NCBI RefSeq assembly: GCF_003149185.1
Contig: NZ_QGDO01000003.1
Location: 702,379 to 766,378 of the forward strand
Source: Sediminitomix flava
GTDB lineage: Bacteria; Bacteroidota; Bacteroidia; Cytophagales; Flammeovirgaceae
Direction: 5' to 3'
Length of the DNA stretch: 64,000 nt
How positions within the stretch are numbered: the first letter of the stretch is position 1; the number at the start of each line of letters is the position of its first letter. The translations under genes and the position numbers were made by a program. Shown in pieces: positions 9,231 through 45,200 of this stretch. The notes under the pieces were generated by a model, which saw only the letters and a list, made by a program, of their open reading frames with translations, made no database searches and had not been told where the DNA came from.

Positions 9231-9234
9231 CAAT

Positions 9235-16380: not shown

Positions 16381-16425
16381 TCAAAAAATTAAAACCTGTA
16401 TTTTTTAACTAAACCATTTTTTATA

Positions 16426-21487: not shown

Positions 21488-23365
21488 CTATTCAAATTTT
21501 GGAGGAGTACCACGCTTGAAAGAGAAGCCTCTCATTTTTTCATGTCGTTGATTTTTTCTGAATTCTGCATCAGGAATATGATTTGCATAGGCTTCGCACC
21601 ATTTTTGAAAAGTACGAATGGCTAAGTTGCTGTAATCAGGAAATTCTTCTACGAAACTTTCTAGAGTATTATTCGAACCATAAAACTTCAATCGATCTTC
21701 TTGGTCTTGAACCCAAAGTAAAAATTCTCGATTGGTTTCCTCTTTAAGTTTTCGGAGTTGTAGGTGTGGATTTTGAGCTTTTATTAAACCATTACGAAGG
21801 TATACCTGAAGACATAAAGCCATTGTAACAAAGAAATATTGCCATTCAGAATTAGCCCAATTTTTACCAAAAAACCATTGTCCAAATTCGTGTTCTGGAT
21901 GGTAATCTTCTGAAAAGTAATTCGTCACCTCAAATTCGTAAACTCTATCCCGGTCTGAACTTCCATCAAGTCTTAGTGTTTTGTTGCTCGTTATTAGAGT
22001 TTTTGCAAGAACATTATAGGGTTGTTTCCCTTTAGGGTTTACCTCATACCCTTCGGTGATACCTGTATAGATTGATTCTAGTTCAAAATCATTTTTCAAA
22101 TCATTAAAGGTAACTACCTGGTCATTACGCTTAATTTTCTGAAAACGGTGGTTGTTAGAGCTTTGAAAATCTTTACCACTAATGTCTGACGTAGGACGGA
22201 TTTCAGCGATACCTTTGGAAACAAGTGTTTTACCAGTTCGCCCATTAGCTCCATCTGATAAGCTACTGTCAGTGAGTGCTATTGCTTTCATTTTGGTTTC
22301 AAAGAACCCATGAAGAGAATAACCGATAGCAGACATTAGTGCTTGAATTCGATTTCCTCTAGGGTTTAATATTTGTTTTAATTCTCGATTACTATTGACA
22401 TAACCTTCTGAGATAAGTACAATAAATTTGGCAAAAGCTGAACGATCAAAGATCGAATCAATATTTTCTAGGTATCTAGAATCAAACTCATGTGGTATTA
22501 TTTGCTCTTCCCAGATATAACCATTCATACTTGAATAATCTTTAAAGCTAATTCCACTATCTTTAATCTCAAGAAAACCGTTTTTAAAGAAGATAAATGA
22601 GGTGTTTTTATCATCTTTCATCAATTTGAATTCTCGATCAGGGTTTAATTGAGCAAAGAAGTTTTCACTACTAAATTTAGGTTTGGAGCAAAAAGCATTA
22701 AACATTTCTTGCTCAGTTAGTCCATTGATTTCTTTATAATTTTTAAAAACCTTTTCAATAATGATAGCAATGATGTCATCTACTTCAATAGCTGCAATTA
22801 TATTTCGAAGTACTCTAACAAATTGACGTTCATTTTTAGTCGTACTAATTCTGAAAAAGCCCATCGCTTTAAGAAAACATATAAATAGAAAAGCATCAAT
22901 TGAAATTTTTTGATTACCATTTTTATCAATAGTTATAATAAAGAAATTAATCACTAGCCGTTGTTGTTGCTCTAGCTGTTGCTTCTTTGGTACGCCTCCT
23001 TCATAAGCCAAGTGGAATAAGGTGTTTACCCTGATTCCATTTCCAGTTGAGTTGAGACATTTGTTGTATTGATCTTCACACTCTGAAAACTCGTAACTAC
23101 TATTAAAATTACTTATGCGGTGAAAATAATCTCTTCCATTTTCACCTAAAGCGTCAACCAATGCAAAACCGATATTAAGCCAATTGTCATAACCATCTGT
23201 GATGTCAAGTTGATTTCGCTCTATGTATGAAACGATATATTCAATACTTTCTTCAGTAGATATATTGACTTTTATTTCATTAGCTACATCTTTGATGACT
23301 GTTGCAATGTGTTGCGGTTTGTTGCTTTGAGTTGCAGTAGGAATATTATTTTTTACAAAACTCAT
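21488..23365 (-). CDS. Primase-helicase (PriCT-2-like plus SF3/DUF5906-type ATPase), element A
   Basis: A 625-residue replication protein. The N-terminal part (about 35-125) resembles the primase C-terminal PriCT-2 domain ('DNWLNIGFALVDALGENGRDYFHRIS'). The C-terminal half is a superfamily-3-like helicase of the phage/plasmid primase group, with Walker A GANGRTGKT near 370 and a Walker-B-like strand 'NDQVVTFNDL' near 415, then the sensor region 'KTLITSNKTLRLDGSSDRDR'. It overlaps the upstream BT4734-type gene by 4 nt (ATGA), so the pair should act together as priming and unwinding enzymes. Its close relative in element B (50993-52906) shares the C-terminal half strongly. The N-terminal coding DNA carries four GCAAC motifs at exact 10-bp spacing (23301-23335). 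Confidence 0.8.
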   Translation of the reverse strand: MSFVKNNIPTATQSNKPQHIATVIKDVANEIKVNISTEESIEYIVSYIERNQLDITDGYDNWLNIGFALVDALGENGRDYFHRISNFNSSYEFSECEDQYNKCLNSTGNGIRVNTLFHLAYEGGVPKKQQLEQQQRLVINFFIITIDKNGNQKISIDAFLFICFLKAMGFFRISTTKNERQFVRVLRNIIAAIEVDDIIAIIIEKVFKNYKEINGLTEQEMFNAFCSKPKFSSENFFAQLNPDREFKLMKDDKNTSFIFFKNGFLEIKDSGISFKDYSSMNGYIWEEQIIPHEFDSRYLENIDSIFDRSAFAKFIVLISEGYVNSNRELKQILNPRGNRIQALMSAIGYSLHGFFETKMKAIALTDSSLSDGANGRTGKTLVSKGIAEIRPTSDISGKDFQSSNNHRFQKIKRNDQVVTFNDLKNDFELESIYTGITEGYEVNPKGKQPYNVLAKTLITSNKTLRLDGSSDRDRVYEFEVTNYFSEDYHPEHEFGQWFFGKNWANSEWQYFFVTMALCLQVYLRNGLIKAQNPHLQLRKLKEETNREFLLWVQDQEDRLKFYGSNNTLESFVEEFPDYSNLAIRTFQKWCEAYANHIPDAEFRKNQRHEKMRGFSFKRGTPPKFE

Positions 23366-23970
23366 AGTTGAAAAAGGTTAGTATTTATAAAACAATTTGG
23401 GTCATGTGGGATAAAACAAGCTCTGCTAATGTCTTTACAAGCTTTATCGACCTCTAGGTTATACTGTTGTTGCATATAGTTGCGAATTGCAACAAAGTGG
23501 GAGAGGTGGTGTTCGTCTGAAACATCAATGTGAATAATCCATTTCAGACCATCTCCACCTGGACTTGTAAAGAGTAGTAGCGTTTGTAATTCAGTTTCTT
23601 TTAAAAGAAATTTTCGACTTTGCTCAATGTTATCAAGGTGGTCAAAATCAATACAAATCATATTAGAATGGCTGATAACTCCACGTTCACTTCTTTTTGA
23701 ACAGACACAGGAGAATGTTACATAATCCATTTGTTGTTTGAGTGAAGGAGCTTTCGTTCGTCTATAATTGTTGGTTATTTTTTTGTGATAATCTCCAATA
23801 ATGACTTTGTAGACCATCGGGATAGTGATGTTGCGGTATGGAATAGTATTTTTGATTCCATTTTTGAAGTATGAAAATAATCCTTGGTTGATATCGTAAA
23901 TATCCCAATTTAAAGGATAGCCGTTAGCTCCAATTATATTGCCAAAGCTGTCTTTATGAATTTTACTCAT
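23362..23970 (-). CDS. BT4734/VirE N-terminal-type primase-associated protein, element A
   Basis: A 202-residue protein matching the BT4734-like (VirE N-terminal) family: 'MDYVTFSCVCSKRSERG', 'MICIDFDHLDN', 'SPGGDGLKWIIHID' and 'CKDISRACFIPHDPNCFIN'. This family is related to archaeo-eukaryotic primase-like palm folds and in Bacteroidota islands is often joined or adjacent to a primase-helicase. The Asp pair in CIDFDH could be catalytic. The gene overlaps the helicase gene by 4 nt. The element B relative (52903-53508) is clearly homologous along its whole length. A terminator-like hairpin separates it from the recombinase gene upstream. Confidence 0.8.
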   Translation of the reverse strand: MSKIHKDSFGNIIGANGYPLNWDIYDINQGLFSYFKNGIKNTIPYRNITIPMVYKVIIGDYHKKITNNYRRTKAPSLKQQMDYVTFSCVCSKRSERGVISHSNMICIDFDHLDNIEQSRKFLLKETELQTLLLFTSPGGDGLKWIIHIDVSDEHHLSHFVAIRNYMQQQYNLEVDKACKDISRACFIPHDPNCFINTNLFQL

Positions 23971-29149: not shown

Positions 29150-32100
29150 ATGTATATTGAGGATTTTTTAAGAGAAAATGAATTAACTGTAAGCCAGTTA
29201 AAAGAGGAGTTGGAACGCAGGGAAGTAAGTAGTGCATTTGAATTACATCAAGAAATGCCTAAAGAATGGTTAGCGTGGTTTTCTAAAACTGAAAAGAAAT
29301 CAGAAAGACTGTTTGCCTGTGTAAAGTATGTAGCGGATGATAAGTCGCATGGTTTTATAAAAACTTTTGAAGAGGTAAAACAACTAAATCTACAATCCCT
29401 CAGAAAAAGAGATGAGCATGATCACAAGCTTATGAAAAAAGACGTGAGTGATTTAGTCTCTGGTGATATTGTTTTATGTGAAAAGAATAGTGAATCTGGA
29501 CAAATAAAAATCATAGATGAGGTATTTACAGGTATTCTGATTACACAAAATCATCAGCCTTTTTTCATTTGTATAGAAGCTCATTTACCTGTAACGGTCT
29601 TTCCCTTAACTAAAAATACAAATATCGAAGAAGCCGTTCTGACAAATGTTGGTTTGACTTTCGATAGAAATCATTTCCATTGTGAAGAACTACCTGATGA
29701 CATAAGTCTAGCGGATAGAGGTTTGATCATAGAACGCTATATCGAATATTTAGAGATCTTATCACCTGAAAGTGTAGCATTTTTGAAAAATGAACTAGGA
29801 GATAAATTCGAACAGAATATAAACGTTAGCTATTTTCAACAAAAAGAATGGGATCAGCTAAAGGTGAGGAGTGAAACCTTAGCGAAGATAGCTTTTTTTC
29901 AAAAATGGGAAGATATTTCAGAAAAAAGCAATAAATCTTTATTTAATTCCTTAGACCTTGACACACAACTACTACTTTTTAATTCTACTCAAACGCCCAA
30001 AAGTCTGTGGAGCGACCAGTTTTTACACCAGCTAATAAATGAAAAAATTGAAGCTAATAAACTTCGTCTTCTACCCAAAGAAAGGAAAGAAGCTTTAGTA
30101 AAACAGTTTTTGGTCGAGTATGAGAGTGAAATTATAGAAGATGAAACAACTTATATTTGGGCAAAAAGTATAATTAATGTCCTCAATGATTTGACATTAA
30201 CAATTGACTTTTTGAATGAAAGGCTAAGTCCTAAGTTTCAATTTGAGGGATGGTTAAACAATACAACTTATGGAGAATACCAAGAGCATATAGCTTTAAA
30301 GGCTCTGACAAGTCTTAGTGCAGTGCAGCAGTCAAAGGTTGTTCAAAAGTTAGGTGATAAGTTTACATTTGAATTAATAGCGGATATAAAACCTACGGAA
30401 GATCGCATTATCCAATTAAAAGTAATTGACCTTATTCAAAGGGAAATTGCTAAAAGACTCAATTTTGTTGTTTTCGATTTGGAAACAGATAAGGAACGGG
30501 TATATGAATTTGGAAGTGTGGACAATCGAGGGGAAATTATTAATTACCCGCATGATGAAAAGACATATTCCAATTGGCTTAAAGAAGAATCCCTAAAGTT
30601 TTCAAATGAGCTATCGAAACTCTTAAATAAGGCATCTATTAAATCGTCTAAAACACCTGAAAAGGCGTTTGTTGATGTAGATAAACTTTTTGAAGATAGG
30701 CTTGTGGTTGGACATAATATCATTGATTTTGACCTGCAAATCTTATCCGATTTAAAATTTCAAGAAAAACCTGTTTTGAAAGTTTGGGACACACTTGTTC
30801 TTGAATTGCTTTTGAGTCCTGAGCTTCGTTCTTATGCACTTCAAACGACGCATAGTGCACTAGAGGATGCAAAGCATAGCAAAGTGTTATTCCTAAATCA
30901 GTTATTGAGACTATTTTACTTGGATGATGAAGCCTTTTTTAATATTACCGAAATGTTTGAGGTCAGTCTAAAAACTGAACTTCAAAACTTGCGTGAATAC
31001 TTCAAGAAAGTAAATTGGATTTCCTCGGAAGTATTGAATGAAACGAAAATAAGTCTCTTCAAGCAAGTGAATCGTTTGCCTATTTTAGAAGAAATTAATC
31101 GTACTTGTTTAGACAGTGATTACCCAAAGCAAGTGTTTGTGATGGCTAATGAGTTGCGTTATGCTGTACTCGACACCGTTCTTGAATTTCAGGCTGAAAA
31201 GCAGGATGATGCTTCTTTCTCAAAAATCAATAAAACAGCTTTACTAAACTTGGAAAACAAGACATTGGCAAAAGCGCTTAAAATTCATATTGAGTATCAT
31301 GAGAAACGTAATGGAAAAGCGGTTTTTTTAGGACAAATTTCTCCTTTTTTGAGGAAAAAGATAGATATAGAGATTATCAGTGGAACAGCTCAAGACAGCC
31401 TTTGGAATAGAGAAAGTAAGCCATTTGATTTTAGGAAAAAACGTTTTCAGTTTGCATTGTCTTTAAGGCAGTTTTTTGAATATCAAGAGCAAATTTTAAA
31501 AGATGATCAAATCCAAATAGTGATTGTTGATCAAGATTTGATGACGATCCAAAACAAAGATGTGTTAAAACTCTTGAGACTAAAAGACGTCCTTCAGTTG
31601 GCTAGTGACCACTCGTTTTGGATTAAAAATTCTGGAGGTATCAGTAGTATAGGTTTGAATCAGAAAGAGGTCATTGAATTAGGGCTTGAAGATGAAAGTA
31701 TTTTAGCTTATGATAATTTTTGGATTGAAAAATATGAATACGGAAAATACAGAATCTGTGGAAATAAAAGATGGGATAAAGCTCTTGAACAGATACCTAA
31801 AGAACGTATTTCTGAACTTAAAATAGCAGAAGGTGTATTGCCAAAGAGCCAATGTACTCTGGTGAAAACATTCCAAAAAAGTACTAAAGCATTGGTAAGA
31901 GTTAATCCCGAAAGTATCTATCGTTCCCGTTATTGGTGTTTTCAAAAAGAAGTTCTAAAAAGCAGTATAGAAGCTAGAGAGGCAGTCATCTTGATTGTAC
32001 AACGTAAGGAAGAAATTCAAGAGCTAGAAAATTATTTCAGAAAAGGTTTAGGCTTTTATGTGCCTTCGTCTCAAGCTAGTTTGAGCAGGCGATTAGAATT

Positions 32101-33217
32101 GCTTCAAGAAAGTACACAACTGAATAAGCTAGTTGTGATTACACCAAAGCAACTTACAAATGTACTTCTGATGAACAGAGAAGGTTGCTTCAAGTTCATC
32201 TTAGATGCTTTTTCTTTGTATGAGTCATTTTTCATTACTAAAGACTCACAGATGTATCAAGATTTCCAAAAACAGGCAAATACTGATGGAGAAGATAAAG
32301 CTGAAATTGATAGTCACAAACCTTTGGAAAGAGATACTTTTTTTCTGCTGAAAATTCAGAAGCGTTATATAGATGTCCTCCGAAGATTGATACTGTTCAA
32401 TAATCCCGAACATGAATTGATGATCTTAGATCCTAGAGTAGAGGACTTCCAAAACCTCGAAAAAATTTGGAATACGAATATCCGAATGATTAAGCTCGAA
32501 ATGGATTTGGAAGCTTTAGAAGAAGAAGCCAAAATTGCTGACCGTTTCTTTTCTGCACCAATAAGTGATGGACGAAATTTACCAATGCCTCTTGCGGACA
32601 TTAAGAAAATGTTAGCCGAGGTCTTTTTGGGTAAAGATCTGTTTTGGTATGACTATCAAGAGCCGTATTTAGATCGGATTATCCCTTCTGAAAAAGATCT
32701 ATTGGTCAGTTTACCCACTGGCGGAGGAAAGTCTTTGTTATTTCAAGCACCTTCTTTGTTTAAATCGGTCTTCACCAATCGAATGTCGATTGTCATTACA
32801 CCACTAAAAGCTTTGATGGAAGATCAGGTAAATACCTTGTGGGAGAAAGGGTTTATCAGTAATGTAGATTACATTAACTCAGATCGGAGAAGTGACTTAT
32901 CCCTTATTTATCGCTCTATTGCAAGTGGAGAAGTGTCTTTGCTCTATATCACACCAGAGCGTTTTAGAAGTGGGGCTTTTCTAAATGCTTTAGAACAACG
33001 ACTTCAAATTGATGGCGGTTTGGAATACGCTATTTTTGATGAAGCTCACTGTGTTTCTCAGTGGGGACATGAGTTTCGTCCAGATTATTTGAATAGTGCT
33101 AAAGCAGTAATGAAACTCAAAAAAGCCAATGCCGAAAACATTAATACACCTGTATTATTATTTTCAGCAACTGTATCAAACAAGATTTTTGAAGACTTCC
33201 AACAGATTTTCAAGTAA
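29150..33217 (+). CDS. DEDDh exonuclease fused to the first RecA lobe of a RecQ helicase
   Basis: A 1355-residue protein. Near residues 55-130 is a small beta-rich segment possibly OB/cold-shock-like. A DnaQ-type 3'-5' exonuclease follows: Exo I FDLET near 443, Exo II GHNIIDFD near 521, Exo III HSALEDAKHSK near 567 (DEDDh). The C-terminus is only lobe 1 of a RecQ-type SF2 helicase: motif I LPTGGGKSLLFQ near 1188, motif II DEAHCVSQWGHEFRPDY near 1297, motif III SATV near 1339. It ends 17 residues later. Lobe 2 starts the next gene, joined by a TAATG stop-start. So this half cannot be a working helicase alone; the two products must assemble. First cargo gene of element B. Function as defence is inferred from its neighbours. 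Confidence 0.82.
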   Translation: MYIEDFLRENELTVSQLKEELERREVSSAFELHQEMPKEWLAWFSKTEKKSERLFACVKYVADDKSHGFIKTFEEVKQLNLQSLRKRDEHDHKLMKKDVSDLVSGDIVLCEKNSESGQIKIIDEVFTGILITQNHQPFFICIEAHLPVTVFPLTKNTNIEEAVLTNVGLTFDRNHFHCEELPDDISLADRGLIIERYIEYLEILSPESVAFLKNELGDKFEQNINVSYFQQKEWDQLKVRSETLAKIAFFQKWEDISEKSNKSLFNSLDLDTQLLLFNSTQTPKSLWSDQFLHQLINEKIEANKLRLLPKERKEALVKQFLVEYESEIIEDETTYIWAKSIINVLNDLTLTIDFLNERLSPKFQFEGWLNNTTYGEYQEHIALKALTSLSAVQQSKVVQKLGDKFTFELIADIKPTEDRIIQLKVIDLIQREIAKRLNFVVFDLETDKERVYEFGSVDNRGEIINYPHDEKTYSNWLKEESLKFSNELSKLLNKASIKSSKTPEKAFVDVDKLFEDRLVVGHNIIDFDLQILSDLKFQEKPVLKVWDTLVLELLLSPELRSYALQTTHSALEDAKHSKVLFLNQLLRLFYLDDEAFFNITEMFEVSLKTELQNLREYFKKVNWISSEVLNETKISLFKQVNRLPILEEINRTCLDSDYPKQVFVMANELRYAVLDTVLEFQAEKQDDASFSKINKTALLNLENKTLAKALKIHIEYHEKRNGKAVFLGQISPFLRKKIDIEIISGTAQDSLWNRESKPFDFRKKRFQFALSLRQFFEYQEQILKDDQIQIVIVDQDLMTIQNKDVLKLLRLKDVLQLASDHSFWIKNSGGISSIGLNQKEVIELGLEDESILAYDNFWIEKYEYGKYRICGNKRWDKALEQIPKERISELKIAEGVLPKSQCTLVKTFQKSTKALVRVNPESIYRSRYWCFQKEVLKSSIEAREAVILIVQRKEEIQELENYFRKGLGFYVPSSQASLSRRLELLQESTQLNKLVVITPKQLTNVLLMNREGCFKFILDAFSLYESFFITKDSQMYQDFQKQANTDGEDKAEIDSHKPLERDTFFLLKIQKRYIDVLRRLILFNNPEHELMILDPRVEDFQNLEKIWNTNIRMIKLEMDLEALEEEAKIADRFFSAPISDGRNLPMPLADIKKMLAEVFLGKDLFWYDYQEPYLDRIIPSEKDLLVSLPTGGGKSLLFQAPSLFKSVFTNRMSIVITPLKALMEDQVNTLWEKGFISNVDYINSDRRSDLSLIYRSIASGEVSLLYITPERFRSGAFLNALEQRLQIDGGLEYAIFDEAHCVSQWGHEFRPDYLNSAKAVMKLKKANAENINTPVLLFSATVSNKIFEDFQQIFK

Positions 33218-36200
33218 TGGAGAGATTACCAGACCATAAAGTATATAACCCGATACGAGATCATATCGCTATAAATTTTGTCAGAAAAGGAAATGAAGAT
33301 GAAATCAAGGCTTTTATTTCCAATAATTTAAACGAACAGAATTTCAATCCTGAATGTAGCCGAGTACTTATTTTTGTACAAACAAGAAACCAAGCAGAGG
33401 AAGCCACTGAACAGCTTAAAGAGGAACTTAAAATAGCAAAAAGACCGTATGCTGAACAAATTTCTTTTTATCATGCGGGTTTAGACAGTATAGAACGAGA
33501 AGAACGTTATGAAGCTTATAAAAATGGTGAGATTGTCATCCTATTAGCGACCAAGGCTTTCGGTATGGGTATGGATATTCCAAACATTCATTACATCTAC
33601 CACTTAAGTCCAAGTTCTACATTTGAAGATTTTTTACAGGAAGTGGGAAGGGCAGGGAGAAACAAATCCTATCTAAATCAAGCTGGTTTTTCTGACAATC
33701 ATCCTATTCAAGCTTATTGTTTGCATACAACTGATTCTTTCAAAAAAATTAAAGACAAAGAGCATAAGTATCAGATTACGTGGGAGAAAATCAAGGCAAC
33801 AAGAAAGGCGATATTTGATTATGTACAGCGGTTTAGAGAACTAAAAGTTGAAAAAGAAAAAGCTTTTCCATTACCTCTAGACATCCAAGATAAAGATGGT
33901 GAAGAGGTGTCAAGAGTCGCTTTGCATTGGCTTGAAAAATTATGTAGAATCCGATTGGGGTTATACACTCCAACTTATTTGCCTTTGCAACTCAGCACTA
34001 CCAATGTGCATATTCCTTCTACCGAGAAAGAAGAAATCGCTAAGAAACTAAATGTCCTCTATAATTTCTTAGGTGAAAAGAAGCATACAACGGAATGTTT
34101 TCAGAACAAACTGATGATTCAACAGTATGAGTTATCCAAGGTCATGAATGTGAAATCAAATGAGGTATTTTCTTATTTGTACAAAGCACAGAAATATGGT
34201 ATCTGTACGCTCTTACGAGATGCGATTTTAGAACCTACCAAAAGACGAAAGAAAGAAGTAGAAAGTGAAATATTTTTCAACAAACAAAGTGATCTTGACT
34301 TCTTATCAAGCCGTTCACCTTCATTTCTATGTCTCGAAAAAGTCTTTGAATTTGCTTATCAGTTACTTAATGCCTCTAAACCAGAAGACCGAATTGTTTT
34401 AGACAATAATTATTTGGAAACAGAAATACAGAATATTTTATCTTCCATTTCTGACTCGGATTTTTATTGGCTAGACAATAAAGAGTTGGGTGCAGAAAAG
34501 TATACTAAAGAAGTAAATAAAGAGAAGAAAGACATTCAAAGTCGATTCAAGTTTGCTTTTAAAATGGTGCACAACTGTCCAAATTACAGCTTTAAGTCTG
34601 TTATGAATACGGATGAAGAAGAGAAGGCAGGAGCCCAGCAGTTGATCTATAATGCAAATAAGGACAATAAACTAGGACTAAGCTATCTAAATGAGTTTAG
34701 AAAAGACCTTGTTAAGCTGATTCATTATGTTTCTAATGAATACTATTCTAAAGAAAGTTTCAGGTTCAATATTGTTGGATTATCTAATCATTTAGGTTTT
34801 GATCAGCAGGGGGAAGAGTATTTTGGTCAGCTTGTGTTTTTCGCAAAAGCATTTGGTTATCTAAAAGGTGGAGGGAGTCTCGTTCCGATGGGGATTGAGT
34901 TATTTATAGATGAGCTTTCGGAAATCAATGAAAATGAAAAAGATGCTTTGGATGCCAAGTGTTTTGAAGAGTTTCAAGAAAGCAATCAAATGAAAGAACT
35001 TAGGCTTCTTGCATTGGAGTGTCTTTCTCTAATTGATGACAGAAGATATGATGCCTTTATTAAAGCCTATTTTGAATGCGCTAATGTCTCAGAATTGATT
35101 CACCTGTTAGAAGAATATCTCGGGGAAGATCATGAGAATCTAAAGGCGTTCAGACAAGAAGCTTTACAAAAAGCAGAAGAAAAACTTAGTGATCAGCAAG
35201 TACTTGTGTATCAAGCTCCACTTTCAGATAACCTGCAAGTGATTGCGGGTCCAGGCTCGGGTAAAACACATACCTTAACATTAAGAGTTGCTCGTTTGAT
35301 TCAAAAAGATAAGATTGATCCCAAAAACATTCTTATTCTAGCATATAACCGTGCTGTAGTAGCCGAATTGAAAGAACGATTAGGGAAGCTTTTTAAAGAG
35401 TTAGGTTATGGAAAACTGATACACAGACTAAAAGTATTTACCTTTCATGGTTTCTGTAAATTTGCACTAAAAGAGCAGTTAAAGACGGATCATTTGGAAG
35501 AATGGGTACCTACTTTTTTGAAATTAGCACAAGATAAACCCGGTCTAGTGGCACAAGCCTTGGGCGGTATTAATTATGTTTTTGTAGATGAATTTCAAGA
35601 TATTACCACAGAACGTTTGGAATTATTGAAGGTTGTAGCAAATGCCAAATCCGTACGTATCTGTGTCATTGGAGATCCAAACCAAAGCATCTATGGATAC
35701 CAACGTTTTAACGAAGGAGGACAGATGGACTCTTTGCCTTACTATAAGGATTTTGCTAAAGTTTATGTTCCCAAAGAATATTACCTAAGCAACAATTATA
35801 GGTCTTACCCAAGAATTGTAGAGCAGTCTGAGAAGTTCTTAGCCTGTAATGATTCTAGATATAAGATGCCTGAGATGAAAGCTGTTTTAAAAGCCGATTC
35901 ATCAGAATCTTACACAGAGAAAATTGATTGCTCTAATGGTAAGGACTATATAAAATGGGACGAACGTACACTCTCACTAATGCAAGAACAAGTTGGGGGG
36001 AAAGACAAATATCAATCTATAGCCTTGATGTTCAGGAGTAATGAGGAGGTTTTTAGAGCGTATAATGAGCTTGTAAAAGCATTGCAGAAAAGTGATTTAC
36101 CTCTCCCAAAAATTAGTATTCAAGGCAATAATAGTAGCCCCAAAAGTAGTAGGGCTTTTTATGAGTTTTTCAAGATTATCAAACAACAACAAGAAAAACG

Positions 36201-37122
36201 CTTAGACCCGAATTATGTCGTAAAGCTAGAAGCTTATAAAGAACTTCTTATCGAAAAATATAAGCATTGGGATGAAGACTCATTTCATTTATTTCATGCC
36301 TTGGTATTAGAGTTTGATCATCAAAAAGAGGAAAATGCCAGCTATCAAGACCTTTATGATTTTATAGCTGAACTCGCAGATAAAGAAGATGGACAACTCA
36401 CCAAAATTTTTAATAAGCACATCAAAAAAACTTCTGGGCAAGCAGAGAGTCAAGAGATTATTCTCACTACAATACATAAGGTAAAAGGGGTTGAATATGA
36501 TGCAGTGATTATACCTCCTTCTTTTGCGCCTTTGCCCTATGGCATACAAGAAGAGTTGACCGAAGAAGTTACCAAGGATTTTATAGAAGAAGAAAGACGA
36601 CTTTATTATGTTGCTTTCACAAGAGCAAAGAGAATGTTGATTACTTATTCATGGAAAAGAGAAAAAGCATTAAAAGAGGGAGTAGAATTTAAAGGAGTTA
36701 ACAATGAAAGTCTTGGTATTCCAATTGATGGAAGCCTTGACAACTTACATATATCATGGAATGCTAAAAGTGGTAATTATGGAGGTCTGAAAAGCAAAGA
36801 TTACATCAAAAATAATGTAAAACTTAAAAGTGAAGCTTCTATTGAGTTGAGGTATGGTAATTATGGTCTTGAAGCTTATGTCAAAGTAGAGGGTAAAAGA
36901 GTTGGGAAATTAAGTACGGCTAAGGTCAAAGAACTAGAAAGAAAAGTTTCAAAAAAGACAAAGGAGATCACAAATATGATGGTTACAAGTATTGCGGTTT
37001 ATACCCGTGAAGAGTCTCTTAGGTATGATGAAAAACATGAAACAAATCATACTGATAAATGGGAGAATGGAGTTAATGAAGTATATTTGGTAAATGTCTC
37101 TGGATTTGGAAAAGAAAAATAG
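33217..37122 (+). CDS. Second RecA lobe of RecQ helicase fused to a UvrD/Rep-type helicase
   Basis: A 1301-residue protein starting at the ATG that overlaps the previous stop (TAATG). Residues about 1-160 are RecQ lobe 2: 'VLIFVQTRNQAEEATEQL', 'LLATKAFGMGMDIPNIHYIYH' near 108 and motif VI 'QEVGRAGRN' near 141. A helical/winged region follows. From about 665 a complete SF1 UvrD/Rep helicase is present: GPGSGKTHTL near 678, VDEFQDIT near 790, GDPNQSIYGYQ near 818, 'TTIHKVKGVEYDAVI' near 1085, 'RRLYYVAFTRAK' near 1125. Together with the previous gene this gives an exonuclease, a RecQ motor and a UvrD motor in one complex. The pair resembles DNA-end-processing machines; I do not recognise it as a named system. 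Confidence 0.82.
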   Translation: MERLPDHKVYNPIRDHIAINFVRKGNEDEIKAFISNNLNEQNFNPECSRVLIFVQTRNQAEEATEQLKEELKIAKRPYAEQISFYHAGLDSIEREERYEAYKNGEIVILLATKAFGMGMDIPNIHYIYHLSPSSTFEDFLQEVGRAGRNKSYLNQAGFSDNHPIQAYCLHTTDSFKKIKDKEHKYQITWEKIKATRKAIFDYVQRFRELKVEKEKAFPLPLDIQDKDGEEVSRVALHWLEKLCRIRLGLYTPTYLPLQLSTTNVHIPSTEKEEIAKKLNVLYNFLGEKKHTTECFQNKLMIQQYELSKVMNVKSNEVFSYLYKAQKYGICTLLRDAILEPTKRRKKEVESEIFFNKQSDLDFLSSRSPSFLCLEKVFEFAYQLLNASKPEDRIVLDNNYLETEIQNILSSISDSDFYWLDNKELGAEKYTKEVNKEKKDIQSRFKFAFKMVHNCPNYSFKSVMNTDEEEKAGAQQLIYNANKDNKLGLSYLNEFRKDLVKLIHYVSNEYYSKESFRFNIVGLSNHLGFDQQGEEYFGQLVFFAKAFGYLKGGGSLVPMGIELFIDELSEINENEKDALDAKCFEEFQESNQMKELRLLALECLSLIDDRRYDAFIKAYFECANVSELIHLLEEYLGEDHENLKAFRQEALQKAEEKLSDQQVLVYQAPLSDNLQVIAGPGSGKTHTLTLRVARLIQKDKIDPKNILILAYNRAVVAELKERLGKLFKELGYGKLIHRLKVFTFHGFCKFALKEQLKTDHLEEWVPTFLKLAQDKPGLVAQALGGINYVFVDEFQDITTERLELLKVVANAKSVRICVIGDPNQSIYGYQRFNEGGQMDSLPYYKDFAKVYVPKEYYLSNNYRSYPRIVEQSEKFLACNDSRYKMPEMKAVLKADSSESYTEKIDCSNGKDYIKWDERTLSLMQEQVGGKDKYQSIALMFRSNEEVFRAYNELVKALQKSDLPLPKISIQGNNSSPKSSRAFYEFFKIIKQQQEKRLDPNYVVKLEAYKELLIEKYKHWDEDSFHLFHALVLEFDHQKEENASYQDLYDFIAELADKEDGQLTKIFNKHIKKTSGQAESQEIILTTIHKVKGVEYDAVIIPPSFAPLPYGIQEELTEEVTKDFIEEERRLYYVAFTRAKRMLITYSWKREKALKEGVEFKGVNNESLGIPIDGSLDNLHISWNAKSGNYGGLKSKDYIKNNVKLKSEASIELRYGNYGLEAYVKVEGKRVGKLSTAKVKELERKVSKKTKEITNMMVTSIAVYTREESLRYDEKHETNHTDKWENGVNEVYLVNVSGFGKEK

Positions 37123-37316: not shown

Positions 37317-38870
37317 ATGGCAAAGAAAGCAGCAGCGAAAGCGAAGAAGAGTATGGAAGAGAGTCTGTGGGACTCAGCCAACAAGCTCAGAGGAACGGTA
37401 GAATCATCGGAATATAAGCACGTAGTACTTGGGCTGATCTTTTTGAAATTTACCTCAGACAAGTTTACAGCGCGTAGAGAGGAGCTGATCGGAGAAGGGA
37501 AAGAGAAATACTTAGAGATGAAGGAATTCTATAATATGAAGAATGTCTTTTTCTTGCCCGAAGAATCTCGTTGGGAGTATCTGATTGCCAATGCCAAACA
37601 AGACGATATTGCTCTAAAGATTGATACAGCTTTGCATACCGTAGAGAAAAACAATCCGTCTTTGAAAGGGGCTTTGCCAGACAACTATTTTTCTAGGCTA
37701 AACCTTGATGCTTCCAAGCTGTCGGCATTGCTCGATACGATCAACAATATTGATACGCTAGGCGATAAGGAAAATGATGTAGTAGGACGCATCTACGAGT
37801 ATTTCTTGGGCAAATTTGCCTCTGCCGAAGGAAAAGGCGGTGGGGAATTCTATACCCCAAAATGTGTGGTAAACCTCATCGCTGAAATGCTAGAACCTTA
37901 CAAAGGGAAAATCTATGACCCTGCATGTGGTTCGGGAGGGATGTTTGTACAGTCGATCAAGTTTGTGGAAAGCCACCAAGGAAACAAGAGAGACATTTCG
38001 ATCTACGGACAAGAATATACGGCTACTACCTACAAACTAGCCAAAATGAACCTTGCCGTACGTGGTATCTCGGCTAACCTTGGCGATGTACCAGCCAATA
38101 CCTTCTTCAAAGATCAGCACCCCGATTTGAAAGCGGATTATATTATGGCAAATCCGCCATTCAACCAATCGCAATGGAGAGAGACCAACGAACTAGAAGA
38201 CGATGCACGTTGGGCTGGTTATACTTCTCCTCCTACGGGAAATGCGAACTACGCTTGGATTTTGCACATGCTTTCCAAACTTTCTGAAACAGGTACAGCA
38301 GGTTTTGTACTTGCCAACGGTAGTATGAGTTCGAATACTTCGGGAGAGGGCGAAATCCGTAAGCAACTGATCGAAAATGATATGGTAGATTGTATGATTG
38401 CCTTGCCAGGGCAGTTGTTCTATACTACCCAAATTCCTGTTTGTTTGTGGTTTGTGACCAAAAACAAAAAGGCAGATAACGAACACGGTTACCGTAATCG
38501 TGAGGGCGAAACCCTTTTCATTGATACTCGACAAATGGGGAGTATGGTAAGCCGTACCCAAAAAGAATTGTCCGCAGAAGATATTGCAGAAATTTGCCGT
38601 ACCTACCATGCGTGGCGTGGAGAAGAAAAGGACGGAAATTATGAAGATGTAGCAGGTTTCTGTAAGTCGGCTAGCCTAGAAGATATTCAGAAGAATGATT
38701 ATGTACTGACCCCAGGGCGTTATGTGGGAGTTGCCGAAGAGGAAGATGACGGAATTCCTTTTGAAGAGAAAATGAGCAGCCTAAGCCAAAAGCTTTTTAG
38801 CCAAATGAAAGAGGCCGAAGTTTTAGACTTGGCTATTCGTGAAAACTTAAAACTTTTGGGCTATGAATAA
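37317..38870 (+). CDS. hsdM: Type I restriction-modification methyltransferase subunit HsdM
   Basis: A 517-residue N6-adenine methyltransferase of the usual HsdM length. The N-terminal HsdM_N helical domain ('SLWDSANKLRGTVESSEYKHVVLGLIFLKF') is followed by motif I DPACGSGGMF near 201 and catalytic motif IV NPPF near 279. With HsdS it methylates the host recognition site; with HsdR it forms the restriction complex. Its stop overlaps the hsdS start by 8 nt. The DNA is noticeably richer in G+C than the ATPase pair downstream, suggesting the locus was assembled from different sources. Confidence 0.95.
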   Translation: MAKKAAAKAKKSMEESLWDSANKLRGTVESSEYKHVVLGLIFLKFTSDKFTARREELIGEGKEKYLEMKEFYNMKNVFFLPEESRWEYLIANAKQDDIALKIDTALHTVEKNNPSLKGALPDNYFSRLNLDASKLSALLDTINNIDTLGDKENDVVGRIYEYFLGKFASAEGKGGGEFYTPKCVVNLIAEMLEPYKGKIYDPACGSGGMFVQSIKFVESHQGNKRDISIYGQEYTATTYKLAKMNLAVRGISANLGDVPANTFFKDQHPDLKADYIMANPPFNQSQWRETNELEDDARWAGYTSPPTGNANYAWILHMLSKLSETGTAGFVLANGSMSSNTSGEGEIRKQLIENDMVDCMIALPGQLFYTTQIPVCLWFVTKNKKADNEHGYRNREGETLFIDTRQMGSMVSRTQKELSAEDIAEICRTYHAWRGEEKDGNYEDVAGFCKSASLEDIQKNDYVLTPGRYVGVAEEEDDGIPFEEKMSSLSQKLFSQMKEAEVLDLAIRENLKLLGYE

Positions 38871-40191
38871 GGGGTGGAGAGAAGTTAAATTAATAGATGT
38901 TACCTCTAAGATTGGAAGTGGTTCAACTCCTAGAGGTGGAAAAGAAGCTTATAAAACAGAAGGTATTTCTCTTATCAGAAGTCAAAACGTTTTAGACTTT
39001 GAGTTTTCAACCGACGGCTTAGCTTTTATTGATGAAGATCAAGCTGAAAAGTTGAAAAATGTAATTATTGAAGAAGGTGATATTCTTATTAATATTACAG
39101 GTGATTCAGTGGCAAGAGTCTGTTCTGCACCAAAAGAATATTTACCTGCTAGAGTGAATCAGCATGTGGCTATACTTCGACCAAACAAAGAAGAATTAGA
39201 TTCATCTTTTCTGAAATACTTTTTGTTGTCACCTTACCAAAAGGCACATTTACTTACTCTTGCATCTTCGGGAGCGACAAGAAATGCTTTAACAAAAAGC
39301 ATGTTAGAAAATTTAGAGGTTAAGCTCCCCCCACTTCATGAACAAAAAGCCATAGCTCATATTCTAGGTACATTAGACGATAAAATCGAGCTAAACCGCC
39401 AAATGAATAAGAGTTTGGAAGAAATGGCACAAGCCCTCTTTCAGTCTTGGTTTGTGGACTTCGATCCTGTGATAGACAATGCTCTCAAACAAAGAAACGA
39501 AATTCCCAAAGCTTTAGCCTATAAAGCCGAAAAGCGAAAGGCTGTACTCGCCAATTCAGAATATCCAAGTTTGCCCGAAGAGATTCAAGCCCTTTTCCCT
39601 TCTTCTTTTGTCTATAATGAGACACTTGCAAAATGGATTCCTGAGGGATGGGAGGTGAAGAAGTTAGAAGAAAATGTAGAGGTAAAGTATGGTAAAGACC
39701 ACAAAAAATTATCTGAAGGTCAGTTTCCAGTATATGGTTCAGGCGGAATAATGCGATATGTAGATCAAACGCTTTGTGAAGCTGAATCTGTTTTAATCCC
39801 TCGAAAAGGAACACTTAACAATATCATGTATGTGAGAGAACCTTTTTGGTCAGTTGATACGATGTTCTTTACCAAGTTCAAAATTGAGAACTATGTAAAA
39901 TTTCTCTTTTACACTTTACGAAGGTTAAATTTTACTGAAATGAATGTTGGGTCTGCCGTTCCAAGTATGACAACTAAGGTTCTAAACAGTATGAATTTAT
40001 TGACTCCTTCAAATGAAATACTAATTCAATTTGAAAAAGAGTTAGAGCAATTCTACTTAAAGATAGAATCAAATTCTAAAGAAACAGAAAATCTAACTCA
40101 ACTCCGAGACATTTTATTACCTCAATTAATATCGGGGAAATTGAGTGTGCCAGAGGTGATGTTGGAGATTAACAATATATCAGAAATTTAA
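38863..40191 (+). CDS. hsdS: Type I restriction-modification specificity subunit HsdS
   Basis: A 442-residue HsdS with two target recognition domains (about 1-155 and 255-400) separated by the central conserved helical region 'LPPLHEQKAIAHILGTLDDKIELNRQMNKSLEEM' split over about 155-205, and a matching C-terminal helix ('ENLTQLRDILLPQLISGKLS'). It sets the bipartite DNA target for HsdM/HsdR. The two recognition-domain stretches are more AT-rich than the conserved parts, as expected where they are swapped. I saw no long inverted repeats or second hsdS copy that would indicate phase switching. It starts inside the end of hsdM. Confidence 0.93.
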   Translation: MNKGWREVKLIDVTSKIGSGSTPRGGKEAYKTEGISLIRSQNVLDFEFSTDGLAFIDEDQAEKLKNVIIEEGDILINITGDSVARVCSAPKEYLPARVNQHVAILRPNKEELDSSFLKYFLLSPYQKAHLLTLASSGATRNALTKSMLENLEVKLPPLHEQKAIAHILGTLDDKIELNRQMNKSLEEMAQALFQSWFVDFDPVIDNALKQRNEIPKALAYKAEKRKAVLANSEYPSLPEEIQALFPSSFVYNETLAKWIPEGWEVKKLEENVEVKYGKDHKKLSEGQFPVYGSGGIMRYVDQTLCEAESVLIPRKGTLNNIMYVREPFWSVDTMFFTKFKIENYVKFLFYTLRRLNFTEMNVGSAVPSMTTKVLNSMNLLTPSNEILIQFEKELEQFYLKIESNSKETENLTQLRDILLPQLISGKLSVPEVMLEINNISEI

Positions 40192-40270
40192 GCTTAGAAA
40201 AGGAGCTTGTGGACTACTTCATTATATTTACAACTTGTATAAAAGTTTACTAGTATTAGTATAAATAATC

Positions 40271-41671
40271 ATGAAAGTTAGGATTAATAATTTTGGACCT
40301 GTCAGAGGGAAGCAGAATTATGTAATAGACCTTAGTAAACAGTTAACTATCGTTACTGGAGGGAATGGTTTAGGGAAAACCTATTTAGGGTATATGGTAT
40401 ATGGTTTATTGAAGAGGTTCTCAGAAATAACTCTCAATGATAACCGTTACATCCTTGATAAATGGATAGAAAAAGATAAAAGTTATTACTATTTAACATT
40501 GTCTCCTTCACGTTTTCAAAAGGTATTGAATATGATATTCAATGTTTTTTATGAAGACTTACCAGCTTTATTAGGTGTTGACCGTAAGACAGCTGATATG
40601 ATTTTTAATCAGTTGGGAATTCAAATCATTGAGATCGATAGTTTACATAAAGAATATATGGATTCTAAAATAGAGCTAAAGAATGGAGGAGATGATACAC
40701 TTGTAGCTAAGGAAGAAGGGGAAGAAAGGATTAAGCTCCCTTTGGATGACGAAAATGAATCAACAGGAAAAACTGCGATTGCTGGGGTTATGAGTTTTTT
40801 TGTGAAGAAGAGTATTCTAAAACTCATATCAATAAGAAGAGTATATTACATTCCTGTTGAAAGAAATTCCTTATATACTTTTAGTAAAGAATTATCATTA
40901 AAGAGGTCTGAGATTATTGACCAAATGCATAATTTTTTAATCAATTCAAAAAAGGAAGAAGATACACTTTCTAAATTACTTAAACGGAATTCTAATCGTT
41001 ACCCTGAAGCAATTGAGGATGCTCTACGTCAGGCACAAGACCTTACTCAGTTGACAAAAAGTGAATCTGAACCTTGTTTTTTAAAGTTAGCAAATGAAAT
41101 AGAAACAGATATTTTACAAGGGACGATCAATATTAGCTCAGACGGAGAAGTAGAATTTGTTCCTCAAAAGTCTAGAAGGAAGAAAGTTCCTGTTCATTTA
41201 AGTGCATCTTTTATTAAAACGATATCTAGTGTATTACTTTTTCTAAAGCATACAGGAGAGAAAGGGGATATGGTGATGATAGATGAGCCAGAAATGAACT
41301 TACATCCCGATATGCAGATATTATTTGCTCGCATTTTGGTAAAAATGTCAAACTCGGGGATTAAGGTATGGTTAAGTACACATAGTGATTATGTTATATC
41401 TGAGATTAATAATATGTTCTTAGCTGGAGTACTTATTGAAAAAGGGCAAGAAGAAAAGGTTCTTGAGTGGGGCTACAATAAAGGAGTATCAATAAATAAG
41501 GATAATGCTCAAGCACTTTATTTAGATGGAGAAGAGGCTAAAACTCAGGTTAAGATAAAGAATCTGAATATTAGTGATCAAGGGATTGATATAGCATCAA
41601 TAAATACAACCTTAGAAAGGTTGAATGAAAGAAGTAATGAGTTGGAGGAGCTGTATGAAAATTTGGATTAA
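40271..41671 (+). CDS. AAA/ABC-type ATPase of the OLD-like group, embedded in the hsd locus
   Basis: A 466-residue ATPase. Walker A is GGNGLGKTYLGY near residue 36, directly after an N-terminal 'INNFGPVRG' strand typical of AAA_15/21 ATPases. The Walker B 'MVMIDEPEMNLHPDMQILFARIL' near 335 and the 'WLSTHSD' switch near 374 match SMC/OLD/RecF-like enzymes. Between them is a helical insertion. No TOPRIM domain is seen, so it is not a full OLD nuclease. It is 3 nt from the 188-residue gene and between hsdS and hsdR, a position where accessory anti-phage modules such as R-linked genes occur. AT-rich compared with hsdM/hsdR. Probably the sensor ATPase of a two-gene toxin or defence unit (inference). 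Confidence 0.75.
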   Translation: MKVRINNFGPVRGKQNYVIDLSKQLTIVTGGNGLGKTYLGYMVYGLLKRFSEITLNDNRYILDKWIEKDKSYYYLTLSPSRFQKVLNMIFNVFYEDLPALLGVDRKTADMIFNQLGIQIIEIDSLHKEYMDSKIELKNGGDDTLVAKEEGEERIKLPLDDENESTGKTAIAGVMSFFVKKSILKLISIRRVYYIPVERNSLYTFSKELSLKRSEIIDQMHNFLINSKKEEDTLSKLLKRNSNRYPEAIEDALRQAQDLTQLTKSESEPCFLKLANEIETDILQGTINISSDGEVEFVPQKSRRKKVPVHLSASFIKTISSVLLFLKHTGEKGDMVMIDEPEMNLHPDMQILFARILVKMSNSGIKVWLSTHSDYVISEINNMFLAGVLIEKGQEEKVLEWGYNKGVSINKDNAQALYLDGEEAKTQVKIKNLNISDQGIDIASINTTLERLNERSNELEELYENLD

Positions 41672-41674
41672 TAT

Positions 41675-42241
41675 ATGTCTCAGGATATTTTTAAAAAAAT
41701 TGGAGAAGGAATTAATGAGTCTAGTAAGTGTTTGACAGGGTTGCTTGAGGAAGAGTCTGAGCAAATGAAAGTGCCACTTTCTCAATATGAAAAATTAGAT
41801 AAAACCTTAGTTATTTCTCCGTTAGATAATGAAAAAGATAGAGTTTGGGCTTTTTTCACAAGTAGTGTAAGCTTAGAGATTGCTGATTATATAATCTATT
41901 CTTTACAGGGAGACGATATTTTTTGCTTTGTTTTAGACTTAAAGAAATCAAAAACAAATGACAATAAATCTAAAGGACGTAAACAAATTGTATCTACAAT
42001 TCCCTTAGCTAAAATGCTCTATGAAAAAACAACAGGTGTTAACCCAGAGGAACTTAAGTGTGTAGGTATAAGAGTATTTGGTCCTCCTAGGGGAAAGAAA
42101 GTACCAAACAAATTAGAGCCGAGTAAAGACGATGATGGTAAATTGGTTATTGTTAATTATAATCAGAATAAGTCTGGAGCGAAATTAACATCCCTAACTC
42201 ATTTGGTGAAGGAAATAAAAAAAGAAGGTTTTTTTAACTAG
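41675..42241 (+). CDS. Uncharacterised 188-aa partner of the embedded ATPase
   Basis: A 188-residue protein that I do not recognise. It starts 3 nt after the ATPase stop, so the two are translationally linked. The centre has a hydrophobic strand followed by acidic and basic residues ('DDIFCFVLDLKKSKT', about 85-100), which could be a D-x-K strand of a PD-(D/E)XK-like fold. This is a weak reading. The rest is mixed alpha/beta with a basic tail ('PPRGKKVPNK', 'TSLTHLVKEIKKEG'). No signal peptide or membrane helix. By position it would be the effector or cofactor of the ATPase. It is followed 18 nt later by hsdR. Confidence 0.55.
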   Translation: MSQDIFKKIGEGINESSKCLTGLLEEESEQMKVPLSQYEKLDKTLVISPLDNEKDRVWAFFTSSVSLEIADYIIYSLQGDDIFCFVLDLKKSKTNDNKSKGRKQIVSTIPLAKMLYEKTTGVNPEELKCVGIRVFGPPRGKKVPNKLEPSKDDDGKLVIVNYNQNKSGAKLTSLTHLVKEIKKEGFFN

Positions 42242-42259
42242 TAAACATAAAGGAATCTG

Positions 42260-45200
42260 ATGAAATACACCGAAGCCAAATTAGAAGAAGCTGTAATTGA
42301 CCTATTGCAGAAGCAAGGCTTTACTTATCAGAAAGGAGAAACGATTACTAGAGCAAAAGATGAAGCATTGCTCAAAGATGATCTTTTTGCCTTTCTGAAA
42401 AAGCGTTATGCCGAAGCACAGTTTTCTGATGCCGAGATTAGCCAAATCATCCGTCAGTTGGAGGTATTGCCTTCTTCAGACTTATATGATAGCAATAAGA
42501 AATTCATGAAATGGGTATCGGATGGATTTATTTTCAAAAGAGAAAAACATGATCAGAAAGACCTTCTGATTCAGCTCTTAGACTATAAGCAGATTGAGAA
42601 CAATAGCTTCAAAATTGTCAATCAGCTCGAAATTCAAGGGGCAGAACTCCGAATTCCCGATGGAATTATTTATATCAACGGCTTGCCTTTGGTGGTCTTT
42701 GAGTTCAAATCAGCGATCAGAGAAGAAGCGACCATTCACGATGCTTACGAACAACTGAGCGTTCGCTACCGTCGTGATATTCCCGAACTGCTGAAATACA
42801 ATGCCTTTTGTGTCATTAGCGATGGTGTAAACAACAAGGCAGGTTCCCTTTTCGCACCTTACGAATTTTTCTACGCTTGGCGAAGAACCGAAGGCTTGGC
42901 AAAAGAAGTAGATGGTATTTCATCGCTCTTTACCATGCTCGAAGGAATGTTTGACAAAGGGCGATTGCTCGATATCATTCATCATTTTATCTATATCCCT
43001 GATACAGGAAACAAAGAGGTAAAAGTACTCTGCCGTTATCCGCAGTATTACGCTACTCGCAAGCTTTACGAAAACGTACTCTTGCATCAAAAGCCCGAAG
43101 GAGACGGAAAAGGAGGAACGTACTTTGGAGCTACGGGTTGTGGAAAGAGTTTCACGATGCTTTTCCTTGCTCGTATGCTGATGAAAAGCGAAGCCTTAAA
43201 AAGTCCGACCATCATCATTATTACAGACCGTACCGATTTGGACGATCAGCTTTCGGGGCAATTCACCAATGCCAAAGGCTATATCGGAGATCAAGTGGTA
43301 CAAAGTGTAGAGAGCCGTTCTGACCTCAGAAGCAAACTGCAAGGACGTAATTCGGGAGGGGTATTTTTAACCACTATCCATAAGTTCAACGAAGACACCG
43401 AACTACTCACAGAGCGTACCAATGTCATCTGTATTTCAGACGAAGCACACCGTAGCCAAGTCAATTTAGATCAGAAAATTACGGTCACAGAGCAAGGTGT
43501 AAAGAAAAGCTATGGTTTCGCAAAGCACTTGCATGAGTCATTGCCAAATGCCACCTATGTAGGCTTTACAGGCACGCCAATTGATGCCACTTTAGACGTA
43601 TTCGGAAATATCGTAGATTCCTACACCATGACCGAGTCTGTAAAAGATGAAATTACGGTCAGATTGGTTTATGAAGGGCGTTCTGCAAAAATTGTCTTGA
43701 ACAATCAGCAACTCCAACAGATTGAGGAATACTACGACAATTGCCTGAGAGAAGGTTCTAGCGAATACCATGTAGATAAGAGTAAGCAAGAAATGGCAAA
43801 TATGAATGTCATTCTAGGTGATCCCGATCGTTTAGCGACACTTGCCAAAGACTTTGTAGCACATTATGAAAATCGTATCGCAGAAGGCAATACCGTAAAA
43901 GGAAAAGCCATGTTTGTATGCAGTAGCCGATACATTGCCTATGATTTCTACCAACAACTGATAGCCTTACGTCCTGAATGGGCTGAAGTCCGTACACATG
44001 CCGAAGGTGAAGAAGGAGAAAATGGACTAACCGAAAAAGAACAAAAGGAAATCCTACCTATGGAGCGTGTCAAAATGATTATGACCAGAGGAAAGGATGA
44101 CGAAGAGGATCTTTACAAAATGCTCGGAGATAAGAGCTATCGCAAGACTTTGGATGCACAGTTCAAAAATCCGAAATCTAATTTCAAGATTGCGATAGTC
44201 GTAGATATGTGGCTCACAGGTTTTGACGTACCATTCCTAGACACGATCTATATTGATAAACCACTCCAAAAGCATAACCTTATCCAAACCATATCTAGGG
44301 TAAACCGAAAGTTTGAAGGCAAGGAAAAAGGCTTGGTAGTTGATTATATTGGTATCAAAAAAGAAATGAACCTAGCCCTTGCGATGTACAACAAGGAGGA
44401 GGAACAAAACTTTGAAGATATCAAGCAGTCTGTTGTAGTGGTCAAAGATCATTTAGACTTGCTCAAAAGATTCTTCCATAGCTTCGATACAAGCAAATAC
44501 TATCACGGAACTTCCGTTGAGCAATTGCAATGCTTAAATCTAGCTTCAGAGTTTGTACTGCATACCGAAGAAAGCAAAAAACGCTTTATGGATATGGTTA
44601 AACGTCTGAAATCAGCATACGATATCTGTTCGGGCAGTGAAGATTTGAGTGAAGAAGAAAAAGACCAAATCCATTTCTATCTAGCCATTCGTTCAATCAT
44701 CTTCAAACTGACCAAAGGCGAAGCACCAGACACCGCACAAATGAATGCTCGTGTCCGAGAAATGGTCAAAGATGCTCTCCAATCAGACGGCATTGAAGAA
44801 ATCCTTAAGATCGAAGGAAACAAAGAAGGAGAGGAAGATATTTTCGATGAAGAATACCTTCGTATGCTTGGCAATATCAAGATGCCAAACACCAAAATCC
44901 AATTGCTCCAAAAGCTTCTACAACAAGCAATTGGAAAGCTCAAAAAGGTCAATAAAATGCAAGGTGTGGACTTCTCTAAAAAGATGGAAGCCCTAGTAGA
45001 ACGTTACAACCTCAGAGAAGGAAATAACTTTACAGGAGCAGAAGCCGATTACTTCTATTCTGACCTTACAGACCGTTTGTTAGACTTATTGAGTGAGATC
45101 AAAGCGGAATTCTCAGCAGGAGAAACACTTGGCATTGACTTCGAGGAAAAAGCCTTCTATGATATCCTAAAGGCAATGGCTCAAAAGTACGATTTCGATT

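Follow-up and report, generated by a model that had tools for sequence, protein, structure and literature searches.

The window analysed here, 64,000 nucleotides (nt) of Sediminitomix flava (assembly GCF_003149185.1, contig NZ_QGDO01000003.1, positions 702,379 to 766,378 of the forward strand), carries a pair of adjacent genes that encode a RecQ helicase divided between its two RecA-like lobes. The first gene joins one lobe to a DEDDh exonuclease, and the second joins the other lobe to a UvrD/Rep helicase. The two reading frames overlap by 1 base, within a TAATG stop-start. The features of the pair, numbered by window position, are as follows (aa, amino acids).

29150..33217, + strand: gene 1 (1355 aa), comprising an N-terminal region, a DEDDh exonuclease, a predicted DinG/XPD-like helicase-like module and RecQ lobe 1
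29150..30469, + strand: aa 1-440 of gene 1, the N-terminal region; relatives have a weak cold-shock-domain match here, the window protein none
30467..30874, + strand: DEDDh exonuclease domain, aa 440-575 (PADLOC DEDDh model, E 7.4e-7)
30872..32644, + strand: two-lobe module predicted to be helicase-like, aa 575-1165, closest to DinG/XPD and without GK[ST] (AlphaFold2 model and fold comparison)
32609..33208, + strand: RecQ lobe 1, aa 1154-1353, with Walker A, DEAHC, aromatic-rich loop and SAT (NCBIfam and motifs)
33215..33219, + strand: TAATG stop-start, the split point in the inter-lobe linker (gene ends aligned)
33217..37122, + strand: gene 2 (1301 aa), comprising RecQ lobe 2, a linker region of ~500 aa and a UvrD/Rep helicase
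33358..33762, + strand: RecQ lobe 2, aa 48-182, with ATKAFGMG and QEVGRAGR motifs (NCBIfam and motifs)
35209..36660, + strand: UvrD helicase, aa 665-1148, all six checked motif patterns present (Pfam, NCBIfam, PADLOC and motifs)

A sequence-only reading of this DNA had placed the end of gene 1 just after RecQ motif III and the missing lobe 2 at the start of gene 2, across the TAATG, and profile searches bear this out. Two TIGR RecQ models of NCBIfam match gene 1 at aa 1154-1349 and 1180-1353 and break off at model positions 179 and 183, respectively; both resume in gene 2, at model positions 226 and 227 (aa 49-182 and 48-163). Gene 1 holds the RecQ Walker A, DEAHC, the aromatic-rich loop SQWGHEFRPDY and SAT, with SAT 14 residues from its end, and gene 2 holds RecQ motifs V and VI together with the UvrD motifs. 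For both superfamily 2 (SF2) lobes, the best NCBIfam and PDB-sequence matches are RecQ models or chains. The other two domains named in that reading were also recovered: the exonuclease, by the PADLOC model and the presence of its catalytic residues, and the full UvrD/Rep helicase, by models that span ~aa 665-1148 of gene 2 piecewise with a complete superfamily 1A motif set. No zinc-binding, RQC or HRDC domain appears among the Pfam matches to E 1, a search that divergent copies could escape.

The same break recurs elsewhere. Among 14 long-form loci, 11 share one inter-lobe split point, two are encoded as one chain, and one, from Rhodobacter, is broken at another position. The 11 same-point splits comprise the window, eight loci from Hymenobacter or the same family, and two from the cyanobacterial phylum; the RecQ lobes thus lie on separate reading frames in 10 loci besides the window, nine of which are intact and which span two phyla. 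The sequence-only reading had held that nearly all homologues being continuous would point to an error here, and the opposite was found, with 11 of 14 loci split alike and purifying selection in two close pairs. An end alignment of the 10 intact pairs shows that gene 1 always stops soon past SAT and that gene 2 always starts in the linker. All 10 retain Walker A, DEAHC, the aromatic loop and SAT in gene 1, and motifs V and VI plus the six UvrD patterns in gene 2. Single-frame versions, which that reading had suggested looking for, do exist: two of the 14 long-form loci (Saprospira grandis, 2,930 aa, and genome G428, 2,491 aa), in addition to a one-piece compact sister family. The one-chain long forms fit both halves making one machine. 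In Rhodobacter CZR27, the exonuclease has its own gene, upstream of an unbroken RecQ-UvrD frame (1,774 aa).

These loci are not a census, and the genomes searched included no Pseudomonadota sample. Among 72,556 plasmid records, tblastn detected the pair in Hymenobacter swuensis (pHsw1) and H. cellulosilyticus. One scan of named-species genomes, using two short peptide patterns and a two-row profile, narrowed 115 stretches to four relatives, in H. gummosus, H. artigasi, Saprospira grandis and Planktothricoides. The Hymenobacter-side family, sampled by 200 genomes, contributed four further split loci, and the cyanobacterial phylum, sampled by 292, contributed one that is split and one that is fused. 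The 149 genomes of the Saprospira order yielded only Saprospira grandis, and the 18 genomes of the window's own family only the window. The pair is therefore sparse, occurring in 7 of the 200 Hymenobacter-side genomes, one of them with broken frames. Five further genomes matched in this sampling, of which the one retrieved, G474, holds the compact form. A search of 395 Bacteroidota genomes with gene 1, at a threshold of E 1e-30, recovered only the window's own genome. Two scans of viral contigs found no relative. Among phage records, 42 match gene 2 and 25 match gene 1, none over more than 80% of the query; the best 8 of 42 cover at most 32% of gene 2, and the best 8 of 25 at most 15% of gene 1. 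The H. cellulosilyticus plasmid copy (L011, 7461-15487) has several broken frames in both genes, through either decay or an assembly error, and was excluded from alignments, tree and selection analysis.

The natural Saprospira fusion offers a view of the undivided core. Its predicted structure has a mean predicted local distance difference test (pLDDT) score of 83.1 and aligns with RECQL5 (Z 27.8, 385 residues, root-mean-square deviation (rmsd) 2.6) and RecQL4 (Z 26.3, 550 residues, rmsd 4.7); the H. swuensis pair (L010) was excluded from the structure alignments. The one-chain fusion is thus predicted to fold as a RecQ core. On this model, the split position maps between residues 188, in the SAT strand, and 218, which is the linker between the lobes.

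The compact sister family, annotated "RecQ family ATP-dependent DNA helicase" and mostly ~1600-1760 aa long, has the same order of exonuclease, RecQ and UvrD. Compact DEDDh-RecQ-UvrD proteins in one chain are found in Calothrix, Allochromatium and Aliarcobacter (1599-1756 aa); the Bacteroides and Cereibacter proteins stand in the same five-row alignment, with invariant acidic positions common to all. In the three members tested, an N-terminal DEDDh domain was found by profile, and RecQ and UvrD by Pfam. Some match to the compact profile occurs in 351 of 395 Bacteroidota genomes, mostly RecQ-sized among the matches listed. Near-whole matches in a single open frame of 1601-1731 aa occur in 14 of the 395 (again among the matches listed), a count for which two candidates were scored per genome and which a split compact copy would escape. 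The compact proteins differ from the split pair in being one chain and in that RecQ starts ~270-340 aa in, leaving an N-terminus whose length, in our judgement, could not accommodate the N-terminal region and DinG-like module of gene 1. The split pair is a longer, rearranged relative of this existing fusion family. Because the compact family is in one piece, the split belongs to one branch and not to every RecQ-UvrD fusion. A compact relative on a plasmid of Nostoc ATCC 53789 (L049, 3786-10531) is broken by an IS1634 transposase gene.

A 22-row tree places the 9 compact rows (two of them shorter, L051 at 1346 aa and L053 at 1380 aa) and the 13 long-form rows on opposite sides with support of 100/100; the tree carries warnings for a long L051 branch and uneven composition. 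Within the long form, the eight Bacteroidota pairs group together (100/99), with the Saprospira fusion adjoining them (100/100). L016 with L046, and G428 with Rhodobacter, form deep separate branches. Built separately, the gene 1 and gene 2 trees disagree in one row, L014. The 22-row topology suggests one of two histories: two origins of the split at the same site, or a single origin followed by fusion and renewed splitting. Purifying selection acts on both halves in the two close pairs that could be measured. In L042/L043, the values of nonsynonymous over synonymous divergence (dN/dS) are 0.032/1.107 for lobe 1 and 0.034/1.125 for lobe 2; in L016/L046, they are 0.070/0.621 and 0.125/0.723. 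Over whole genes, the ratio is 0.06-0.23 in three pairs with estimable dS, the fourth being saturated.

The remaining parts of gene 1 were examined by profile, motif and structure prediction. The five catalytic residues of the exonuclease (D443, E445, D528, H568 and D573) are invariant in a 6-row alignment, and the motifs occur in all 10 intact pairs with variant spellings in L016 (GHK for GHN) and L044 (MDLE). Searched alone against PDB sequences, the exonuclease stretch gave only five unrelated matches (E 0.41-0.95). A weak cold-shock-domain match appears in 6 of 10 homologous N-termini scanned (best E 2.2e-4), and none appears in the N-terminus of the window's own gene 1 in the same domain scan; the Rhodobacter counterpart reaches E 1.2e-5, under the Pfam cut-off. 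The 591 residues between the exonuclease and RecQ lobe 1 have no Pfam match. A helicase-like module is predicted here, a new finding that the first reading had missed. Its best AlphaFold2 model has a mean pLDDT of 72.8 and a predicted template modelling score of 0.69, with the five models ranging from 56.8 to 72.8. Foldseek against the PDB ranks DinG, XPD and DinG first to third (DinG 6fwr, E 3.5e-7; XPD 3crv, E 3.9e-7), and a second aligner, VIA, gives DinG 6fwr a Z of 12.2 over 364 residues (rmsd 7.0) and S. aureus DinG 8zef a Z of 10.6. GK[ST] is absent from the module in the window protein and in 8 of 10 pairs, and the strings that occur there in L045 and L016 come without the P-loop glycines. 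We read this region, with moderate confidence, as a putatively dead helicase module most like DinG/XPD.

The sequence-only reading had also described a defence-rich setting, and this too was found. Downstream of the pair lie HsdM, HsdS, a PD-T4-4_A-like ATPase, HsdR, a McrB-like AAA gene and McrC. The type I restriction genes occupy window positions 37317-45424, with the PD-T4-4_A-like AAA gene at 40271-41671, and the McrB-like gene followed by McrC occupies 45457-48600. A 188-aa open reading frame (ORF) ahead of HsdR has no Pfam or PADLOC match. Defence-type genes also adjoin other loci. In L045 (genome G757, 5020-19963), HsdM and HsdS are upstream and HsdR is downstream of the pair, all on one strand, a gene order that places the split pair inside a type I restriction run. 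N6-methylase genes lie near the pair in L013 and L014, and in L043 the neighbours include an AAA_5 relative of the McrB-like gene in the window. The H. swuensis neighbourhood contains a PDC-S68 candidate and a DrmD-like helicase, and that of L044 a weak mad2 match. The Allochromatium compact relative adjoins hsdS/M/R.

Several features of the surroundings were recorded separately. Related small proteins occur on both flanks of the pair in L011 (6607-7287 and 15580-16254) and L042 (4196-4651 and 12928-13638); the one tested has no Pfam match. In the window, a 235-nt repeat of 71% identity occurs at 23359-23593 and 52900-53134, at the junctions of a 625/202-aa ORF pair (PriCT_2 primase, BT4734-like) and a similar-sized 637/201-aa pair. 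This repeated stretch at two ORF-pair junctions suggests that the defence cargo may lie between two related mobile modules. Further upstream, window positions 3927-20880 hold four very long consecutive ORFs of 1767, 937, 1399 and 1484 aa.

These data allow us to propose how the two proteins might work. On balance, we think it somewhat probable that the two genes encode two subunits of one helicase-exonuclease, with the RecQ ATPase site between the subunits, that works in defence. Subunit A would contribute the N-terminal part (cold-shock-like in relatives), the DEDDh exonuclease, the DinG/XPD-like module (putatively dead), and the ATP-binding Walker motifs, which lie in RecQ lobe 1. Subunit B would supply RecQ lobe 2 as the second half of the ATP site, the linker region, and the complete UvrD motor. 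Only the A-B complex would have a working RecQ motor, so that two motors would be coupled to one exonuclease. RecQ and UvrD families move with 3'-5' polarity. The machine may load on DNA ends, nicks or gaps, for example on invader DNA cut by the neighbouring restriction enzyme, and would then unwind the DNA and digest the freed 3' end. Assembly of the halves into one machine is strongly inferred and, in our view, very probable; given assembly, a defence role is fairly probable and is moderately supported by the neighbouring genes.

A more specific version of this proposal, which we offer tentatively, is that placing the helicase halves on two proteins acts as a safety lock in a new defence machine, such that the ATPase site and DNA destruction arise only when the subunits meet. 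That meeting might take place on DNA cut by the neighbouring restriction enzyme, and the split would have been held or regained at one point in Bacteroidota and Cyanobacteriota.

Several observations weigh against a two-subunit defence enzyme. The low dN/dS values come from close relatives, the window pair having no relative close enough for the measurement. The compact family does without the split, indicating that it is dispensable for this kind of enzyme. As spelled, the RecQ motif V and UvrD motif V patterns are absent from the one-chain protein of G428, and the aromatic-loop and NYRS patterns are absent from Rhodobacter. The DinG-like module depends on a model of middling confidence; its Foldseek TM-scores are only 0.3-0.4, and DinG 6fwr stands only ~1 Z above the matches ranked just below it, which score 11.0 and 10.x and include other SF2 helicases as well as DinG. 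A profile of the module found no match among PDB sequences up to E 10, and its members gave two matches to NCBIfam, at chance level only. Since sequence-level searches of the module found nothing, its likeness to DinG is one of fold. As for the neighbourhoods, no third gene is conserved across loci, the most widely shared neighbour family occurring in 4 of 14. Five of 10 picked neighbours have no PADLOC match, including the sole ones tried from L042, L043, L046 and L047, and L015 is unrepresented. An N6-methylase gene lies within 10 kb of the pair in 3 of 11 genomes versus 0.15 expected (P 0.0003), an expectation that assumes even gene placement and ignores the clustering of defence genes; the other 8 genomes have none within that distance. 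Set against these weak spots, the defence-type genes beside several loci make a defence role plausible.

The same two-subunit machine could instead serve DNA repair, replication support or the upkeep of a mobile element or plasmid, and we give this alternative a minor but appreciable chance. RecQ and UvrD proteins act in repair or in coping with replication stress. The same holds, according to PMC12525004, for B. subtilis DinG, which carries a DEDD exonuclease and degrades single-stranded DNA 3'-5'. The genetic context is also compatible with upkeep, with two split loci on Hymenobacter plasmids, a compact relative beside ParA/ParB and a replication initiation gene, and primase and integrase genes upstream of the window pair. 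However, the sparse presence of the pair (1 of 18 genomes in the window's family, and similarly few on the Hymenobacter side) suits accessory cargo, and the genes that adjoin several loci are of defence type.

The remaining alternatives concern whether two cooperating subunits exist at all. RecA-like lobes can act as binding modules, and the helicase-like module of gene 1 itself lacks Walker A; the halves might therefore no longer assemble, each RecQ lobe serving otherwise, such as in partner or DNA binding. This is improbable, as Walker A and DEAH of lobe 1 and motifs V and VI of lobe 2 are kept in all 10 intact pairs, and both lobes are constrained in the two measured close pairs. Slightly less credible still is a ribosomal frameshift at the overlap that would yield one long chain, split in the DNA only. 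One-chain forms exist, and the genes do overlap, by 1, 4 or 17 nt, in the eight intact Bacteroidota pairs (in L043, the in-frame ATG nearest the gene 1 stop was taken as the gene 2 start). In the two intact pairs of the cyanobacterial phylum, however, the stop is followed by gaps of 8 and 14 nt, and the step from the frame of gene 1 to that of gene 2 is +2 in eight pairs and +1 in two. No single shift serves all, and a shared frameshift is unlikely because frame step and spacing differ among pairs; translational coupling of the two genes is likely. A sequencing error or decaying pseudogene, for which the broken frames in both genes of L011 might speak, has a negligible chance given the same break with intact frames in nine other loci of two phyla and the low dN/dS in measured pairs. 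The recurrent break, low dN/dS and varying frame step led us to set aside error, pseudogene and programmed frameshift.

If two subunits do share the RecQ site, the ATP site would be formed where the subunits meet, like those of ring ATPases, and assembly could serve to control activity. To our knowledge, a helicase with its two RecA lobes conserved on separate proteins is unusual. The module set of exonuclease, DinG-like module, RecQ and UvrD occurs as one chain, as two chains divided at the lobe linker, or broken elsewhere, and the pair offers a direct test of a RecQ motor working in trans. It is also a candidate defence system or restriction partner.

Comparison with known systems places the pair near several of them. 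Pfam, NCBIfam and PADLOC 2023 contain no model spanning either protein among the matches listed, which are to single domains. In the titles and abstract openings of open-licence PubMed Central papers, no such proteins are described among the matches listed, and the compact family was likewise not found. The Werner syndrome exonuclease-helicase WRN resembles the pair in joining a DEDDh-type exonuclease to a RecQ helicase, and WRN helicase structures are among the matches of RecQ lobe 1 and of the Saprospira core. WRN consists of a single chain, carries RQC and HRDC domains, and has neither UvrD nor a DinG-like module. S. aureus DinG joins a DEDD exonuclease to a DinG helicase. B. subtilis DinG has this arrangement too (PMC12525004) and is in this respect like gene 1, which differs in that its DinG-like module lacks Walker A and is followed by RecQ lobe 1. 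Gene 2 resembles Gabija GajB, its best PADLOC match (E 2e-44). A GajA partner was not found in a scan of 10 downstream proteins, where, among the matches listed, only the AAA gene at 40271 matched GajA (best E 1.2e-8, versus 1.5e-71 for PD-T4-4_A). GajB has no RecQ lobe. RecBCD and AddAB consist of several subunits and link two motors with a nuclease, an arrangement that the proposed complex would share. Neither protein has a Pfam match to a RecB-type nuclease domain up to E 1, and the pair differs from RecBCD/AddAB in that one motor is divided between genes. Compared with canonical RecQ, the aromatic-rich loop and both lobes are present, but not in one polypeptide.

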